This document shows positions 3,357 through 9,871 of a DNA stretch of 9,871 nt, piece after piece. The notes beneath the pieces were generated by a model that saw nothing but the letters and a program-made list of their open reading frames with translations, did not search any database and was not told the origin of the DNA. Within the stretch, counting starts at the first letter, position 1, and every line of letters begins with the position of its first letter. The DNA is from an uncultured Oscillibacter sp. Its GTDB lineage: Bacteria; Bacillota_A; Clostridia; Oscillospirales; Oscillospiraceae. Position numbers and translations under genes: made by a program. Location: NCBI GenBank assembly GCA_948902155.1, contig CAQVQZ010000072.1:1-9871 (forward strand), in the 5' to 3' direction.

Positions 3357-4730
3357 TTAGCGGACAGCCTCCGCCTCGTCAAGCTCGGGATAGAACGACT
3401 TTCCTTCCTTTTCCTCCTTGGTCTGCAGGAGATTGAACTGAATGGTGATGATGGTAAAGACGAACAGGAAGAAGAGATAATACCCGCGGGTCATCAGGGA
3501 CAGCGGAGAGACGGAGCTCATGGTGGTGACCACCAGGAAGGCGGAGCTCAGGGGCGAGAAGCCCGGGACAATCACGCCGAAGATGTCCATCAGGGAGGCC
3601 AGGCGCTCCGGCGCAACGCCGTATTTTTTGGCGATGGGCTTGCACAGCGGGGTGCTGATGATGATGGCGATGGTGTTGTTCCCGATGAAAAAATCGATGA
3701 CCGAGACAATTCCGGCGATGGCGTACTGGGCGCCCTTGCGGCTCTTGATGTTTTTGAAGAGGCCCGTCAGCCACTCCATGCCGCCCATATCTGCGGCCAT
3801 GCCGCTGAGGCCCTTCATGAACAGCGCCATGAGCACCAGGGACAGCATCCCACTAATGCCGCCGGTGGCGGAGGAGGAGAGGGTCACCAGGGTCATGGAC
3901 CCGGTGGCGATGCCGATGACAGCGGAGAGGACCGTGCCCGTCAGGAGGACATAGATCACGTTCATGCCCGCCACGGCGCAGACCAGGACGACCAGGTAGG
4001 GGACGACCTTGAGCAGCTGGTACTCATAAGCGCCGGAGACTTCTGCGCCGCCGCCGATGAGGCAGTAGATGACGGTCGTGATGACAGCGGCGGGCAGGGC
4101 GATCTTGAAGTTCATGCGGAATTTGTCCTTCATTTCGCAGCCCGCGCCCCGGGTGGCGGCGATGGTGGTGTCGGAGATGACAGAGAGGTTGTCTCCGAAC
4201 ATGCTGCCTCCGATCCCGGCGGACATGGTGACGGCAGGGTCCAGCCCGGCGGCCTCGATGAAGCCCAGGGCGATGGGGGCGATGGCGGAGATGGTTCCCA
4301 GGCAGGTGCCCATGGACGTGGAGATGAACACGCAGATCAGGAACAGGCCGGCGGTGATAAAACGGGCGGGGATAAAGGACAGCGCCAGATTCACGGTGGA
4401 GTCCACCGCGCCCATGCCCTTGGTAACGCCGGAGAACATACCGGCCAGGACAAAGATCAGGCACATCAGCATGATGCCGGGATTGGCGCAGTGGGCGGCG
4501 AAGGCGTCCACCGCCTCGTTGATGCCCCGCTTGCTCATGAACAGGGCCACCAGCACGGAGATAACCAGGGCGAACTCGCGGGAAATCTGCTTGAAAGCGT
4601 CGGGGGTTCCCAGGATGGTGAAGACAATGCCGCTGCCGAAGTACACCACCAGCAGCACGATCATGGGCAGGAAGGCCAGGGGGCCGTAATTTCTCTCGTT
4701 CTCAAGGGCTTTCAGGCTGTCCTCTTTCAT
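3357..4730 (-). CDS. nhaC: NhaC-family Na+/H+ antiporter-like transporter, candidate methionine transporter
   Basis: This is a polytopic membrane protein of 457 residues with roughly eleven to twelve hydrophobic segments, the usual length for NhaC/COG1757 proteins. The family hallmarks are present: a STSMGTCLGT stretch near residues 137-146 with the following APIALGF helix, and a GGSMFGDNLSVISDTTIAA block near 174-192 followed by the charged cytoplasmic CEMKDKFRMN. Members exchange sodium and protons or couple ion flow to organic substrates (for example malate/lactate antiport). A subgroup called MetT was predicted from comparative genomics to import methionine. Placement 32 bases downstream of a methionine gamma-lyase-like gene, with no terminator between, favours an amino-acid substrate here; that is inference. 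The ATG at 4730 has TAGGAGAAG about 8 bases upstream. Generic Na+/H+ antiport remains possible. Confidence 0.85.
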   Translation of the reverse strand: MKEDSLKALENERNYGPLAFLPMIVLLVVYFGSGIVFTILGTPDAFKQISREFALVISVLVALFMSKRGINEAVDAFAAHCANPGIMLMCLIFVLAGMFSGVTKGMGAVDSTVNLALSFIPARFITAGLFLICVFISTSMGTCLGTISAIAPIALGFIEAAGLDPAVTMSAGIGGSMFGDNLSVISDTTIAATRGAGCEMKDKFRMNFKIALPAAVITTVIYCLIGGGAEVSGAYEYQLLKVVPYLVVLVCAVAGMNVIYVLLTGTVLSAVIGIATGSMTLVTLSSSATGGISGMLSLVLMALFMKGLSGMAADMGGMEWLTGLFKNIKSRKGAQYAIAGIVSVIDFFIGNNTIAIIISTPLCKPIAKKYGVAPERLASLMDIFGVIVPGFSPLSSAFLVVTTMSSVSPLSLMTRGYYLFFLFVFTIITIQFNLLQTKEEKEGKSFYPELDEAEAVR

Positions 4731-4762
4731 AGCTTTCTTCTCCTAAAAATCGTATTTGGTAT

Positions 4763-5983
4763 TTACAGAGCGGCAAACGCCTGCTCGAAATCCTGAATGA
4801 TGTCCTTCACGTCCTCCAGGCCCACGGACAGGCGGATCAGCCCGTCGCTGATTCCGGCCTTCTCCTTGTCCTCCCTGGAAACCCGGGCGTGAGTCATGCT
4901 GGCGGGGTGCTCGACGAGGGTGTCGGGGTCCCCCAGGGATACGGCGATCTGGGCCAGGCGGAGGCTGTTCAGCAGCGCTGCCCCGGCGTCGTAAGCCGAG
5001 CGGCCGTGGATGCCCTCCTTCAGCTCGAAGGCGATCATGCCGGTGTACAGCTCCTCCCGCATCTGGCGCTTTGCGAGTTCGTGCTGGGGATGGCTGGGAA
5101 GGCCCGCGTAATAGACCCGGGCAATGTAAGGGGAGGACTCCAGATACCGGGCCGTCTCCATGGCGTTGGCGCAGTGGCGGCGGACCCGCATTCCCATGGT
5201 CTTCATGCTGCGGATGACAAGATAGGCGTTGAAGGGGGCCAGGGGCGTGCCGCAGAACCGGGTCATGGCGCCGTTGCGGACCTTGTCCATGTCCGCCTTG
5301 GACCCGGCGGCCACGCCGCCGATCACGTCCCCGTGGCCGTTGTAGTATTTCGTCAGGGAGTGGACCACGATGTCCGCTCCCAGCTCCAGGGCGAAGAGGA
5401 TGGGGGGCGGGGTGAAGGTGCTGTCCACCACCATTTTCAGCCCGTGGGCCCTGGCGATCTTGGACATGGCGGCCACATCGGTGACGGTCATCAGGGGATT
5501 TGCCACCGTCTCAAAGTACAGCATCCTCGTGTTGGGGCGGACCGCCGCCTCCACCTCCTCCGGCTTCGTCGTGTCCACAAAGGTCACGTCGATGCCGAAC
5601 TGGGCCAGGTTGGTCCCCATGATGTGGTTCGTGCCGCCGTAGACGCACCGGCCGCAGACCACATGGTCCCCGGTCCGCAGGAAGGCCACCATGACGCAGC
5701 CGATGGCCCCCAGGCCGGAGGCGGTGGAAACGGCGGCCTCCGCGCCCTCCACGGCGGCAATTTTTTCCTCCAGGACAAAATTGGTGGGGTTGCCGGAGCG
5801 GGAGTAGTAGCAGCCGGGGATCTCCCGCATGATTTTCTTCTGCCCCTCCTCCACGGTGTCATAGCAGAAGGTGGAGGTCTGGTAGATGGGGGTCGCCAGG
5901 GCGCCCCAGTCGCTGTCCCGGCGCTGCCCCGCGTGGATGAAGGCGGTGTCAAAGCCCGCGCCGGCGAGGTCAAATCCTTCCAT
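4763..5983 (-). CDS. Methionine gamma-lyase-like PLP enzyme (Cys/Met metabolism family)
   Basis: This is a cytosolic fold-type I PLP enzyme, 406 residues, of the trans-sulfuration family. Visible active-site elements are YSRSGNPT (Y60, R62, phosphate and neighbour-subunit contacts), Y115, N162, D187 (pyridine nitrogen), K212 in VHSLTKYYNGHGD (Schiff base) and R384 in GLIRLSVGLED (substrate carboxylate). The C-terminal half, with RHCANA, HPASMTH and GISDGLIRLSVGLED, is closest to methionine gamma-lyase (MegL/MdeA), which turns methionine into methanethiol, 2-oxobutyrate and ammonia. However, the MGL-typical cysteine after YG is glycine here (YGGT, as in cystathionine gamma-lyases), and the K-D-M triad near residue 241 is T-R-F. 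Cystathionine or homocysteine lyase or a sulfhydrylase are alternatives. Its start overlaps the upstream Nim-like gene by 14 bases, so the two are probably translationally coupled. The ATG at 5983 has AAAGGA about 12 bases upstream. Confidence 0.85.
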   Translation of the reverse strand: MEGFDLAGAGFDTAFIHAGQRRDSDWGALATPIYQTSTFCYDTVEEGQKKIMREIPGCYYSRSGNPTNFVLEEKIAAVEGAEAAVSTASGLGAIGCVMVAFLRTGDHVVCGRCVYGGTNHIMGTNLAQFGIDVTFVDTTKPEEVEAAVRPNTRMLYFETVANPLMTVTDVAAMSKIARAHGLKMVVDSTFTPPPILFALELGADIVVHSLTKYYNGHGDVIGGVAAGSKADMDKVRNGAMTRFCGTPLAPFNAYLVIRSMKTMGMRVRRHCANAMETARYLESSPYIARVYYAGLPSHPQHELAKRQMREELYTGMIAFELKEGIHGRSAYDAGAALLNSLRLAQIAVSLGDPDTLVEHPASMTHARVSREDKEKAGISDGLIRLSVGLEDVKDIIQDFEQAFAAL

Positions 5984-6626
5984 GTGTCTGTCCGTCCTTT
6001 CCGTTGTTTCGGATATTCAGGTATCCCAGGTAACGCTTGTTCCGTATCTCGTTTGGCCGTTCCGCCAGCAAATCGCCGACGTCATAGGGCTCGTGGTCCT
6101 CCGGGAGTCCGTAGACGTCCGGGAAGGGAACGTCCTCCGGGCGGCGGACGGGCGTCTCGGTTTTGCCGGATACGTCTTGCCAGTCGCATTCGATTGCGTA
6201 CATATCCATTCCGGCGATGCCCTTGGGGTTCTTGCAGTCCACCCGGCGGGTCTTGCGGAACAGGGCCTGGAGCGCCGCGGCGCATGCCTCCGGCTCCCGC
6301 TCCGGGCCCAGGTAACGGGCCCTGCCGAAGGCCATGACGGAGCGGTAGTCGTGGACGTGGCCCTTATAGGGCCGGTCCGGGAAGTTCCGCCAGGCGGCAA
6401 AGGAGCAGCACACCACGGGCTCCGATTCCAGCAGCATCCGGGTGTAGCCCTCTTTGGCGGTGTGAATGAAAATCGAAAGCCGCCGGTCGTCCGCCGCCCA
6501 GCCGTAGCACATGGGAACGACATAAGCGGTCTGTTTGTCCTGAAATCCAATATGTACGATATCGCACAGGTCCAGAATCGCGGTAATCACCGCGTGGTCG
6601 TAAACGAGCTGCTCATAGCGAAGCAA
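5970..6626 (-). CDS. NimA/pyridoxamine-phosphate-oxidase-like flavoprotein
   Basis: This is a predicted FMN-binding split-barrel protein of 218 residues, cytosolic. It begins RYEQLVYDHAVITAILDLCD, then has the Nim-type core YVVPMCYGW (35-43) and HTAKEG (55-60) and a later HDYRSVMAFGRARYL strand region (92-106), as in 5-nitroimidazole reductase-like (NimA) and related PNPOx-fold proteins. A charged tail of about 55 residues after position 165 is longer than the usual 150-160 residue family member. I choose the TTG at 6626 because GGAGG lies 8 bases before it and the family similarity starts there. A TTG at 6680 would add 18 residues from inside the repeat element and has no such site. It is the first gene of the operon and overlaps the PLP-enzyme start. 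A true substrate is unknown; nitroimidazole reduction, flavin-linked reduction or cofactor binding are all possible. Confidence 0.8.
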   Translation of the reverse strand: MLRYEQLVYDHAVITAILDLCDIVHIGFQDKQTAYVVPMCYGWAADDRRLSIFIHTAKEGYTRMLLESEPVVCCSFAAWRNFPDRPYKGHVHDYRSVMAFGRARYLGPEREPEACAAALQALFRKTRRVDCKNPKGIAGMDMYAIECDWQDVSGKTETPVRRPEDVPFPDVYGLPEDHEPYDVGDLLAERPNEIRNKRYLGYLNIRNNGKDGQTHGRI

Positions 6627-6634
6627 GCAAAATT

Positions 6635-6639
6635 CCTCC
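6635..6639 (-). promoter_or_regulatory. Ribosome binding site deciding the TTG start of the Nim-like gene
   Basis: On the minus strand GGGGAGGA is followed, 8 bases after the GGAGG core, by TTG at 6626-6624. The site lies outside the palindromic repeat that begins at 6648. No ATG or GTG is available at a suitable distance in frame, so a TTG start is the best reading. Confidence 0.65.
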
Positions 6640-6647
6640 CCTCTGAT

Positions 6648-6812
6648 TAGGGCCTGCTTGAAACATGCCAAAACACCCAATCGGCGGATATTTTTCCGCG
6701 GTTGCTGCGTTGAGTTTCCTTGAAATCCGCCAGGATTCCCGGGGAAAACCGCCTCGCCCGGCGAAAAAATCTCCCGCCGCCGGGCATTTCTCCATGTTTC
6801 AAACAGCCCCTA
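6648..6812. repeat. Palindromic multi-hairpin repeat with terminal inverted repeats (MITE-like)
   Basis: A 165-base element is bounded by inverted repeats, 6648-6667 against 6793-6812, pairing at 18 of 20 positions (outer part AGGGCCTGCTTGAAACATG). Inside are two further stems: GGCGGAT 6683-6689 with ATCCGCC 6725-6731, and GCCCGGCG 6756-6763 with CGCCGGGC 6778-6785 around an A-rich loop. The whole can fold as a three-arm structure on either strand. Open frames cross it in both directions but have no start signals and end outside it. From memory the outer motif resembles a dispersed non-coding repeat in Oscillospiraceae genomes; that is a recollection, not a search result. It lies between the Nim-operon ribosome binding site and the terminator of the AraC-type gene, so it must form part of the operon's leader or promoter region. 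Confidence 0.7.
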
Positions 6813-6980: not shown

Positions 6981-8006
6981 TTACAAAAGTTCGTCCAACC
7001 GCGCGGCAATGGACGCCAACTGTTCCCGGATATCCCGGACGGCCTGCCGGTCCACGGTCCGGCTGTCCGTCCTTTCAAAACAGGGACTGTATCGCGCCAG
7101 GGCCTCCTCCGCCTCCGGCAGCGGGCGGGGAAGGTACTTGTCCGAGCCCCGCATGGCCCGGAGCTCCGGATTCTGCCGCAGGGCCTGCCGGTATTCCTGG
7201 GGCGTCCGCCCGCAGTATTTCTTCATGCTGGAGGAAAACGCCTTGGCGTCTGTAAAGCCGTGGTCCAGCGCAATGTCCACGACGGAACGGTCCTGTCTCC
7301 CAAGAGTTTCCAGGGCATGGCGGAGGCGGACGCGGGTGATGTAGTCGTTAAACAGGATGCCGGTGCTTTTCTTGAAGAGGGTGGAGAGGTAGGTCCGGTT
7401 GTACTGCACATGGGCGGCCACTTGCTCCAGGGTGAGCTTCTGCTCAAAATTGGCCTCGATATAGTCCATGGCCCGCTGCAGGGCCTCCTGCTCCTTGCCC
7501 TTGCCGGCTTTCGGGGCGGTGACCTGCGTGGAAAAACGGAGCATCAGTTCGGACAGCAGGAGGGACACATATTGAAGGGACAGGCGTTGGACGGCGGGCT
7601 GTTCCTGAAGCGCGTTGAAGAAGGACTGTACCAGGAAGAACCGCAGCCGCGAAAACAAGGCTTCCTCTCCCATCCCGGGGGAGGAGACGCAGTCGATCTG
7701 CAGGGTGCTCAGCTCCGCGGCGAGCCGTTCCCGGAAGAAATCGGCGGATACCTCGCAGATCAGGACCAGGCTGCCCAGCTCCCGGAGGAAGGTGGAATGT
7801 CCGCAGTTTGAGTTGATCAGCAGCAAATCGTCCTGCTCCAGCAGATATTTTTTCCCGTCGGCGAAGACCTCCGCGCCTCCCTTCAGGACCAGCATCAGTT
7901 CCAGCGGACCGTGCCAGCAGAATTGATAGCTGCCGCCGCCCAGCAGATAATGCTCCAGCATAGGCAGCCGGTTTTCCGTCACAATTGCGTGATACCATTT
8001 TTCCAT
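6981..8006 (-). CDS. AraC-family transcriptional regulator with cupin sensor domain
   Basis: This is a DNA-binding regulator of 341 residues. Residues 1-100 look like an AraC-type cupin sensor (a run of short strands, WHGPLELMLVLKGGAEVF then LEQDDLLLINSNCGHS). A helical linker follows, then the two helix-turn-helix units at about 190-212 and 239-262. The second carries the family signature GFTDAKAFSSSMKKYCGRTP and EYR. About 55 residues extend beyond the usual end of the AraC domain, rich in Arg/Glu and probably helical at 315-341, which is unusual and may serve in dimer contacts. The ATG at 8006 is preceded by GGAGG at 7 bases. It is divergent from the Fe-S flavoprotein gene and shares a 290-base control region with it, so that gene or operon and the regulator itself are likely targets. 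The ligand cannot be read from sequence. Confidence 0.9.
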   Translation of the reverse strand: MEKWYHAIVTENRLPMLEHYLLGGGSYQFCWHGPLELMLVLKGGAEVFADGKKYLLEQDDLLLINSNCGHSTFLRELGSLVLICEVSADFFRERLAAELSTLQIDCVSSPGMGEEALFSRLRFFLVQSFFNALQEQPAVQRLSLQYVSLLLSELMLRFSTQVTAPKAGKGKEQEALQRAMDYIEANFEQKLTLEQVAAHVQYNRTYLSTLFKKSTGILFNDYITRVRLRHALETLGRQDRSVVDIALDHGFTDAKAFSSSMKKYCGRTPQEYRQALRQNPELRAMRGSDKYLPRPLPEAEEALARYSPCFERTDSRTVDRQAVRDIREQLASIAARLDELL

Positions 8007-8055
8007 ATCAGCGCCTCCTGCCTGAAAGAAGTCCGTTTCTCACGGCCGCAGGTTT

Positions 8056-8084
8056 AGTATAGCGGACCCGTCTGTTTATAGCAA
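8056..8084 (-). promoter_or_regulatory. Sigma-A type promoter of the AraC-type gene
   Basis: On the minus strand TTGCTA (8084-8079) and TATACT (8061-8056) are separated by exactly 17 bases. The -10 lies about 50 bases before the start codon. Both hexamers are close to the consensus, which makes this the best promoter in the window. Confidence 0.7.
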
Positions 8085-8158
8085 TTCCCTCTTTTGGGAA
8101 AATGCCCGGGAAAACCCTGAATATTTCCCCTGCCTCCCTGCGTCTGCCTGCTATTCCC
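8085..8158. promoter_or_regulatory. Cluster of five TTCCC/GGGAA boxes, candidate operators
   Basis: TTCCC occurs at 8085, 8125 and 8154, and GGGAA at 8096 and 8108. The first two form a dyad (TTCCC-N6-GGGAA) abutting the -35 of the AraC-type promoter. The GGGAAAA copies at 8096 and 8108 are direct repeats spaced 12 bases. The last copy is part of an imperfect dyad with TTGCGGAA at 8181-8188, next to the putative plus-strand promoter. None occurs elsewhere in the intergenic region. A binding role for the AraC-type protein is inference. Confidence 0.4.
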
Positions 8159-8175
8159 GCAAAACTGCAAAATAT

Positions 8176-8205
8176 TTGGATTGCGGAAAGCGCCGTTTTT
8201 TTATA
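8176..8205 (+). promoter_or_regulatory. Possible promoter of the Fe-S flavoprotein gene
   Basis: TTGGAT (8176-8181) and TTTATA (8200-8205) are spaced by 18 bases. An alternative reading is TTGCGG with TATATG at 15 bases. The match is modest, as expected if an activator is needed. The start codon lies about 90 bases downstream, leaving a leader of some 80 bases. Confidence 0.35.
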
Positions 8206-8226
8206 TGGTCTTAATAGACGCATGAG

Positions 8227-8268
8227 AAACGGTTCGCCTGCGCGAAACACATTGCGCATGCGGCGTTT
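8227..8268 (+). promoter_or_regulatory. Leader hairpin or operator dyad before the Fe-S flavoprotein gene
   Basis: TGCGC at 8239-8243 pairs with GCGCA at 8254-8258, and AAACG at 8227-8231 pairs with CGTTT at 8264-8268, giving a leader hairpin with an internal loop. The same stretch also contains a compact DNA dyad, TTCGC-CTGC-GCGAA (8233-8246). Either an RNA fold or a protein site is possible. I do not recognise a riboswitch class. Confidence 0.35.
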
Positions 8269-8296
8269 GCCCAAGTCATCCGCTGGGAGGTTTGAG

Positions 8297-9871
8297 ATGG
8301 AGCGGCTCGGTTTTTTATACGACACGACGCGATGCGTCGGGTGCAAGGCGTGCCAGATCGCCTGTAAGGAGCAGAACAAGCTGGGGGCCGGGGAATTCTT
8401 CCGGCGGGTGGAAACCCTGACGGAAGGCGGCTCCCCGGTTCATTTTTCCGCGGCCTGCAACCACTGTGAAAATCCCGCCTGTGCGGCGGTTTGCCCCACG
8501 GGGGCCATGTACATCGCCGAAGACGGCACGGTTCAACATGATGACGGGAAGTGCGTCGGCTGTGGGCGCTGCGTCCACCATTGCCCCTACGGCGCGCCGT
8601 CGCTGAACAAGAGGACGGGGTACGCCCAAAAATGCGACGGCTGTGCCCGGCGGCGGAAGGAGGGACTGGACCCGGCCTGTGCGGCGGCCTGTCCCACCCG
8701 CGCCTTGCACTTTGGTCCCCTCAGCCGGGCGGACGCGGACATGGTTTCCAGCGGCGGCCTGTCCTTCCTGCCTCCGGCCTCCCTCACGGGGCCGTCCCTG
8801 CGGCTCCGCCGTAAGGCGGGCGGCGTCAAGGCGGAAGACGCGGCCCCTCCGGCGCCCCGGGAGGAGGCCCCTCCGGCCTTCCGCCGGGATACGAAGCAGA
8901 AATTCCTGATCCTGGGCGGCGGCGTGGCGGCGGTCTCCGCCGCCCGGGCTATCCGGGCCAGGAACGCCTCCGCCTCCATCCGGATCGTCAGCGGGGAGGA
9001 CCGGATTCCCTACTGCCGCCCCATGCTCTCCAAGGGGCTGCTGAACGGCTTTTCCGAGGACCGCTACCCCGTCGCAGGCCGGGAATGGCTGGAGGAAAAC
9101 CGAATCCGCCTGACCCTGGGGCGGACGGTGGAGTCCCTGGACCCCGCCGCCAGGACGGCCGCGCTGGACGACGGGACGGTCCTGCCCTATGACAAGTGCG
9201 TGTATGCGCTGGGCGCCCGGTGCTTCCTTCCGCCCATCACCGGGAGGAGCCTGCCGGGCGTGTTTACCCTTCGTTCCGACACGGACCTCCGGGCCATCCG
9301 CCGCCGGATGCTGTCGGCGTCCCGTGCCGTGGTGGTCGGCGGCGGCATCACCGGGCTGGAGATCGCCTGGGAAATGAAAAAGGCGGGGCTCCGGGTGACG
9401 GTGCTGGACCTGGCTCCGGTGCTGATGGGCCGGCTGCTGGACCGGCGCAGCGCGGAGGCGCTCCGGCGGCGCATTGAGGACGCCGGAATCCCGGTGGCGA
9501 CAGGGGTCCGGATCAAGGCCCTGGAGGGCGGGAGCGGAGGGGTTGCCTCCGTGGCGCTGGAGGACGGGCGGAGCTTCCCGGCGGAGCTGGTGCTGCTCTC
9601 CACCGGGTTCCGGGCAAATACCGCCGTGGCGGAGCAGGCCGGACTGAGCGCGGGCCGGGCGGTCGCCGTCACAGAGGCGATGGAAACCAGCGACCCGGAT
9701 ATCTACGCCTGCGGCGACTGCACGGACCGCAGCCTCTCCACTTGGATGCAGAGCGTCCGGCAGGGGGAAGTGGCCGGGGCCAACGCCGCCGGGGACCGTC
9801 TTGTATTTCAACCGGAACCGGAACCGGCCATGGTCCACACAGCGGACACGTCCCTCCTTTCCGTCGGCGAC
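8297..9871 (+). CDS. Fusion of DmsB-type 4x[4Fe-4S] ferredoxin and FAD/NAD(P) oxidoreductase (3' end beyond window)
   Basis: At least 525 residues, open to the window end. GGGAGG lies 6 bases before the ATG. Residues 1-140 are a DmsB/NrfC-like electron-transfer subunit with 16 cysteines in four groups: C13/16/19/23, C54/57/62/66, C86/89/92/96 and C113/116/128/132, predicted to bind four [4Fe-4S] clusters. A Pro/Ala-rich linker covers about 155-200. From 203 there is a pyridine-nucleotide-disulfide-type flavoprotein: FAD motif GGGVAAVSAARA (207-), YCRPMLSKGLL (239-), NAD(P) motif GGGITGLEIA (348-) and the FAD signature DIYACGDC (468-). This half resembles NirB/rubredoxin-reductase-like enzymes. 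There is no signal peptide or membrane segment, so it is cytosolic. It should shuttle electrons between NAD(P)H and a partner enzyme through the clusters. E. coli AegA has an analogous plan with a GltD-like flavin half, and CODH clusters carry CooF and an FAD-NAD oxidoreductase as separate genes. The partner, probably downstream, is not visible. Confidence 0.92.
   Translation, partial: MERLGFLYDTTRCVGCKACQIACKEQNKLGAGEFFRRVETLTEGGSPVHFSAACNHCENPACAAVCPTGAMYIAEDGTVQHDDGKCVGCGRCVHHCPYGAPSLNKRTGYAQKCDGCARRRKEGLDPACAAACPTRALHFGPLSRADADMVSSGGLSFLPPASLTGPSLRLRRKAGGVKAEDAAPPAPREEAPPAFRRDTKQKFLILGGGVAAVSAARAIRARNASASIRIVSGEDRIPYCRPMLSKGLLNGFSEDRYPVAGREWLEENRIRLTLGRTVESLDPAARTAALDDGTVLPYDKCVYALGARCFLPPITGRSLPGVFTLRSDTDLRAIRRRMLSASRAVVVGGGITGLEIAWEMKKAGLRVTVLDLAPVLMGRLLDRRSAEALRRRIEDAGIPVATGVRIKALEGGSGGVASVALEDGRSFPAELVLLSTGFRANTAVAEQAGLSAGRAVAVTEAMETSDPDIYACGDCTDRSLSTWMQSVRQGEVAGANAAGDRLVFQPEPEPAMVHTADTSLLSVGD

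Follow-up and report, generated by a model that had tools for sequence, protein, structure and literature searches.

The DNA analysed here, a stretch of 9,871 nucleotides from an uncultured Oscillibacter sp. that has relatives among animal-gut bacteria (the window), lies on contig C23 of a 2.79 Mb assembly (G000; 94 contigs, 83% complete) and ends inside a gene that joins a four-cluster ferredoxin module of the DmsB type to an FAD/NAD(P)H oxidoreductase (FNR). In the source genome this DmsB-FNR fusion is followed by an overlapping gene in which a TorD-type chaperone domain is fused to a DmsA-type molybdopterin oxidoreductase (TorD-DmsA). Together the two products probably form a soluble, cytoplasmic, two-polypeptide, NADH-dependent reductase of the dimethyl sulfoxide (DMSO) reductase family, a reading that draws on gene order, the fusions, the domains and the conserved ligands. 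From these we infer complex formation, the electron path and its direction, the location and the cofactors.

The features of the fusion gene, in window coordinates, are as follows.

8297 to 9871, plus strand: DmsB-FNR fusion gene, truncated where the window stops; its genome copy continues to 10138 (locus L002, converted to window coordinates) and encodes 613 amino acids.
8285 to 8290, plus strand: Shine-Dalgarno-like GGGAGG, read in the sequence, 6 nt upstream of the ATG.
8297 to 8731, plus strand: DmsB module, residues 1-145, with 16 Cys and four putative [4Fe-4S] sites, the cluster type being taken from DmsB.
8732 to 8893, plus strand: residues 146-199, comprising the conserved C-terminal tail of DmsB and then a short linker modelled with low confidence (174-191).
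8903 to 9766, plus strand: FAD/NAD(P)H oxidoreductase, Pyr_redox_2 at residues 203-490.

The ATG at 8297 opens a frame that runs without a stop to the window end, the stop codon lying 267 bases farther on in the source genome; the window and assembly copies of the protein differ at 6 of the 525 shared residues. Pfam places Fer4_11 (residues 50-140) and Pyr_redox_2 on the same chain, and the genome protein has a Rubredoxin_C-like end beyond the window (residues 558-592, below the Pfam cut-off). All 16 Cys have an aligned Cys counterpart in DmsB of E. coli K-12 and are invariant in 21/21 fused sequences (the genome's own copy, P0001, and 20 picked from 49 fused clusters). Two glycine-rich motifs, which we take to be dinucleotide-binding, are readable in the same alignment. 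The initial annotation had described an uninterrupted frame linking an intact 16-cysteine module to a flavoprotein with both dinucleotide motifs, and this is what is found; its Pro/Ala-rich linker stands in part, as the short stretch 174-191, the only run of at least three residues with a predicted local distance difference test (pLDDT) score <50 in the structural model of the fusion (pLDDT 81.0, predicted template modelling score (pTM) 0.76). The remainder is partly DmsB's own C-terminal tail, as the FLPPASLTGPSL stretch of the supposed linker aligns with PLPRAHFTKPNI of E. coli DmsB. The best alignments of the flavin half are with ferredoxin-NAD reductases, and its FAD and NAD domains match the ferredoxin-NAD(+) reductase fold (TodA/BphA4). 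In its NAD fold, strand two ends in Asp/Glu in 21/21 sequences, which we take to favour NADH as the nucleotide.

The TorD-DmsA gene begins 11 bases before the end of the fusion gene and encodes 957 amino acids. Its product carries a Nitrate_red_del/TorD-type chaperone domain at residues 36-147 (41.7 bits; Pfam cut-off 22.2) and a molybdopterin oxidoreductase part with PF00384/PF01568, of the DMSO-reductase family, that scores 877.1 bits against TIGR02166 (dmsA_ynfE; cut-off 777.7). Both matches recur in 24/24 members of a set consisting of this protein (P0002) and 23 picked from the best 120 of 2469 TorD-DmsA relatives (TIGR02166 at E <= 1e-50, Nitrate_red_del at E <= 0.001), and the model of the protein is confident (pLDDT 88.9, pTM 0.88). 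A fold listing for the protein shows no TorD match, which carries no weight because hits to the catalytic part take up all its rows. The initial annotation had pointed beyond position 9871 to either a DmsA-like molybdopterin oxidoreductase or cooS: the former is the very next gene, and cooS is absent from the nine neighbourhood proteins scanned with Pfam. The DmsA-type partner and the bypass of the membrane were thus anticipated, and the chaperone fusion of the partner lay outside the window, out of the reader's sight. To judge by their domains, the two genes combine an NADH dehydrogenase module with the equivalents of E. coli DmsA and DmsB and of a DmsD/TorD-like chaperone.

In the proposed mechanism, the FAD of the C-terminal flavin half would accept a hydride from NADH, and single electrons would then travel from FAD along the DmsB half's four clusters and the FS0 cluster to the molybdenum-bis(molybdopterin guanine dinucleotide) centre of TorD-DmsA, which would reduce an oxidised organic substrate of the S- or N-oxide type. 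The fused TorD domain would stand in for a separate maturation chaperone, and the likely benefit would be the regeneration of NAD+ in fermentation without quinones. In principle such a chain could run either way, and AorABC passes electrons from aldehydes to NAD, so that the molybdoenzyme might instead oxidise its substrate and the flavin half form NADH. We regard this as unlikely: the catalytic subunit belongs to the DmsA/YnfE reductase subfamily, and the position that aligns with DMSO reductase's molybdenum ligand is Ser in 160/160 rows. The potentials of S- and N-oxides, moreover, are far higher than that of NAD.

The fusion recurs widely enough to dispose of an artefact. Among the 120 listed of 241 relatives, 49 clusters, counting that of the window, are fused over their full length (>=45% identity, >=95% of the query covered, 585-678 amino acids); only two of them are named in the source, both as 'FAD-dependent oxidoreductase', which is not the record of a common fusion of known function. 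In 80 of 510 loci from named genomes, DmsB, FNR and TorD-DmsA occur together in 6, and the flavin half alone matches in 74. Fused frames are present in the own genome (L002), in a Dysosmobacter metagenome-assembled genome (MAG; L005) and in goat and buffalo cecum MAGs (L006 and L007), and DmsB and FNR are separate adjoining or overlapping genes in L008, L009, L067, L137 and L138. Thirty-seven of 400 genomes of the window's family match the fusion protein at E <= 1e-60, full-length in G000 only; the eight lowest-scoring of 39 other matches comprise four split cassettes (L178-L181) and four with the flavin half only, and the 8 further genomes on the list that belong to this genus are without a match. 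Split relatives with overlapping genes do occur (by 4 bases in L180 and 8 in L138, with the starts chosen), so that a small frame change would be enough for fusion, and each split locus is known from one assembly and may individually reflect a frameshift. That two genes were joined in sequencing or assembly is nevertheless ruled out for practical purposes by the 49 fused clusters, by the fused frames on the independent contigs L005-L007 and by a fused branch in two trees.

TorD-DmsA is the next gene after DmsB and FNR in 13/13 loci (4 fused, 9 split), of which the fusion sequence led to 10 and TorD-DmsA to two (L137 and L138, which are therefore not independent), the remaining locus being that of the window; one of the 13, L009, ends at its contig edge. 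The halves are accordingly neither always joined nor always separate. This constancy bears on the idea that free ferredoxin or flavodoxin can generally exchange electrons with the DmsB half, the flavin half being a ferredoxin-NAD reductase, or a bifurcating unit, with further client enzymes. The FNR half does belong to the ferredoxin/rubredoxin reductase fold family, and DmsB-TorD-DmsA chains and orphan TorD-DmsA genes (see below) imply other donors in relatives; yet DmsB plus FNR is seen solely beside TorD-DmsA, in all 13 loci (two of them found through TorD-DmsA), and TorD-DmsA is missing from the stretch examined wherever an FNR match lacks DmsB (74/80 and 4/8 loci), which leaves this idea with little probability. 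Matches of the TorD-DmsA type (E <= 1e-150) were obtained in 2/394 genomes of the order and in 16/398 of the phylum, the latter mostly aligned without the chaperone part. Spread of the fusion on plasmids was considered and rejected: no plasmid record covers 80% of the fusion, and the 13 records that match do so at <60% identity over 48-58% of the query, in the flavin half only.

The history of the fusion was followed in two FNR trees. In the more careful one, 53 fused rows together with P0051 and P0053 form one branch (support 100/98), which the split locus L138 adjoins, the remaining split rows lying deeper. Strict labelling of the fused group requires 3 changes, owing to the FNR-only rows P0051, which begins at FNR, and P0053, which begins within the DmsB part and looks like a truncated fused gene. 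In the second, quicker tree (four split rows added, four long outgroup rows dropped, fused rows thinned, P0051 and P0053 counted as fused) the fused group is one side of a branch with support 92, below the value starred by the tool, and neither L138 nor the root is firmly placed. The simplest reading is that the DmsB-FNR fusion arose once. The nearest FNR relatives outside the cassettes are mostly clostridial frames of about 850 amino acids (64/74 measured at >=836); P0054 and P0055, which group with these frames, carry flavodiiron-type domains.

Downstream of TorD-DmsA, on the same strand, the operon continues with a membrane protein, a 150-amino-acid protein and a MobA-like protein (L002 4429-6835, minus strand), an order that is kept in L005. 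The first two, the third and fourth genes of the cassette, have no Pfam family at E <= 0.01 and no match above cut-off in a listing to E 10. By eye, the membrane protein is ECF-like and the 150-amino-acid protein probably exported. The MobA-like protein scores above the Pfam NTP_transf_3 cut-off and below the curated MobA cut-off, and has an additional N-terminal part of about 195 residues. Since the product of the third gene is a conserved membrane protein that Pfam assigns to no family above cut-off, the enzyme could in theory remain quinol-fed through an unseen membrane subunit. We consider this very improbable: tblastn finds the third-gene protein beside 4/13 cassettes and not beside 9 (among them the contig-cut L009), DmsC, NrfD and PF02621 are without a match in all six genomes tested (G000, G668, G1114 and the genomes of L005, L006 and L007), and menD matches in 4/6 of them, never above cut-off. 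No menaquinone marker reaches its cut-off in these six genomes, and there is no DmsC among the operon genes scanned. The bypass of the membrane proposed in the initial annotation is therefore the natural reading, with electron flow as deduced above. As regards a twin-arginine translocation (Tat) signal on the DmsA partner, its N-terminus, read by eye, is the chaperone domain, and TatC is present in G000. A soluble form is feasible, since passages of PMC10609526 describe E. coli DmsAB made without the Tat signal of DmsA as less stable, yet soluble, cytoplasmic and active.

The chaperone fusion is more widespread than the DmsB-FNR fusion. The 2469 TorD-DmsA relatives were collected at E <= 0.001, and PF02613 is found in 117 of the best 120. 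In 7 of these 120 (P0137, P0206, P0211, P0230, P0236, P0238 and P0239; 1117-1193 amino acids) DmsB is fused ahead of TorD-DmsA. P0206 has matches at E <= 1e-150 in 7/250 genomes sampled from the family to which L012 (Blautia) belongs; one of the seven loci, L164 (5480-8998), encodes the DmsB-TorD-DmsA single chain, and at the 6 others, two of which (L167 and L170) are too short for the TorD part, neither DmsB nor FNR was found in the stretch examined. Second copies at L152-L154 likewise stand alone, with no DmsB or FNR found in the stretch examined. The frames of the lone DmsA-type genes L152, L153, L154, L165, L166, L168 and L169 span 907-988 amino acids. In a quick DmsA tree, the cassettes and the lone and DmsB-fused relatives are split (support 99) from a canonical set of 20 DmsA proteins without a TorD part, together with L140; a DmsC-like gene was recognised by eye beside two of the canonical genes (L139 and L142), and DmsC is annotated beside E. 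coli dmsA. L140 (5426-9121) has its own TorD-like part on DmsA and is followed by a DmsB gene without FNR; because it groups with canonical DmsA, the chaperone-DmsA fusion probably happened more than once. Two small membrane genes after its DmsB gene are AzlC/AzlD-like by eye and are unmatched by DmsC.

The TorD-DmsA proteins also differ in the cysteines of FS0. Among the best 120 relatives the first FS0 cysteine position is Gly in 115 rows, Cys in 4 and a gap in one; in the canonical set it is Cys in 14/20, Gly in 3 and Ser in 2, the frame of L142 being misread there. Position 246 is Cys in 119/120 of the listed relatives (a gap in one), in 9/9 cassettes (L002, L005-L009, L067, L137, L138) and in 8/11 other loci (not in L140, L167 or L170), and in 0/20 canonical proteins. 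As the 120 rows are the best-scoring ones, this pattern marks a clade and is no unbiased census. Both the first Cys and Cys246 are missing from five canonical proteins, and four relatives have the first Cys in addition to Cys246; with exceptions both ways, the exchange is not a strict compensation. Passages of PMC8840923 provide a precedent for a non-cysteine ligand of the FS0 type in subfamily II enzymes (three Cys and one His). A further proposal, which we put forward tentatively and with the balance of doubt against it, is that FS0 is held by a rearranged set of C232, C236, C246 and C264, and that these proteins constitute a distinct DMSO-reductase-family class in gut anaerobes, anchor-free and chaperone-attached, with an exchangeable input module. 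The module would take the form of separate DmsB and FNR, of DmsB-FNR, of DmsB within a DmsB-TorD-DmsA chain, or be missing altogether, and the version in the window would be a complete NADH-driven reductase of the respiratory type in two soluble chains.

Several observations weigh against a soluble NADH-dependent reductase. The lack of the usual first FS0 Cys makes the cluster type and the electron transfer to molybdenum uncertain. The DmsB half scores 151.3 bits against TIGR02951, under the cut-off of 214.1. Several lone relatives with neither DmsB nor FNR in the stretch examined imply that a catalytic protein of the TorD-DmsA type can work with other donors. The absences of anchor and quinone genes are weak, G000 being 83% complete and completeness being unstated for three of the six genomes. 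Finally, TatC is present in G000 (C32:10022-10648, L172) and was found in none of the other five genomes, so that export machinery is unusable as an argument there.

Upstream of the fusion gene the window contains two further features of interest.

6981 to 8006, minus strand: divergent AraC-type regulator, which adjoins the fused operon in L005 too (63% identity).
8007 to 8296, no strand assigned: upstream region shared by the AraC-type and fusion genes.

The AraC-type protein is a candidate local regulator of the operon; a search of 8007-8296 for an operator or promoter gave nothing convincing, and the terminator-like sites in the operon (13, vs 8.6 +/- 3.4 in shuffles) are not informative. 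Beyond the AraC gene (4763-6680, minus strand) lie a pyridoxal 5'-phosphate (PLP) enzyme resembling methionine-gamma-lyase, below the curated cut-offs, and a Pyridox_ox_2 protein; by eye, L005 has genes that match in order and strand (4590-6485, minus strand) and, for the first gene, in similar start residues. These two neighbours hint at a possible sulfur-compound theme. No neighbour gene is consistent among the loci as a clue to the substrate.

DmsA-type enzymes in genomes are usually read as signs of membrane-bound anaerobic respiration, and the textbook equivalent depends on quinones, on an anchor in the membrane and on a distinct helper protein. The cassette suggests that some Clostridia use a DmsA-type catalyst as a soluble sink for NADH, and that the labels 'FAD-dependent oxidoreductase' and 'DMSO reductase subunit A' may hide a single two-protein enzyme. 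Two chains with a built-in chaperone domain would also make it convenient to study how electrons are transferred, what TorD does and how FS0 is ligated.

Compared with DmsABC/YnfEFGH (DMSO and selenate reductases), the cassette shares a DmsA-type subunit above the TIGR02166 cut-off and the 16-Cys DmsB module, but no DmsC was found, DmsB is fused to a flavoprotein, the chaperone is fused to DmsA and the FS0 Cys pattern is different. The CooF and FNOR pair of carbon monoxide dehydrogenase loci was rejected as an identity because cooS is missing from the neighbourhood proteins scanned. AegA and YgfT, in line with the initial annotation, share the one-chain plan of polyferredoxin plus FAD/NAD half, with a flavin half of another type; identity with AegA was rejected, the fusion scoring 73.4 of 1003 and 77.9 of 1154 bits against the curated AegA and YgfT cut-offs, with the best stretch in the Fe-S part only. 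The fold and sequence of the flavin half resemble BphA4/TodA-type reductases, which serve the ferredoxins of dioxygenases, and clostridial FNR-flavodiiron proteins, which are attached to flavodiiron-type domains rather than to a molybdoenzyme. P0064 and P0097, named 'nitrite reductase (NADH) large subunit', have the same Fer4_11 and Pyr_redox_2 pair but only 28-29% identity to the fusion, and represent a second, distant family with the same plan. No description of a DmsB-FNR or TorD-DmsA fusion was found among the titles and abstract openings of the open-access papers that full-text searches listed, a weak absence, and the words 'fusion' and 'fused' do not occur in the main text of a survey of the NarJ subfamily (PMC4464133). 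An NADH-fed cytoplasmic molybdoenzyme that acts on diet-derived compounds in a clostridial species is described in parts of PMC12771579 (Ucdh, a gut member of the xanthine-oxidase family), where regeneration of NAD+ is named as a possible role. The closest demonstrated analogue, judged by its architecture, is AorABC of Aromatoleum aromaticum, in which a four-cluster ferredoxin subunit likewise links an FAD/NAD subunit to a metal-pterin enzyme. Sections of PMC10413684 describe the four clusters of AorA as relaying electrons between the tungsten subunit and FAD in AorC, with FS4 at 9.5 A from FAD. AorC (8c0z_E) is also a sequence relative of the flavin half (E 2.2e-26); unlike the cassette, AorABC has a tungsten aldehyde oxidoreductase as its catalytic subunit, keeps its subunits separate and forms an NAD-using filament.
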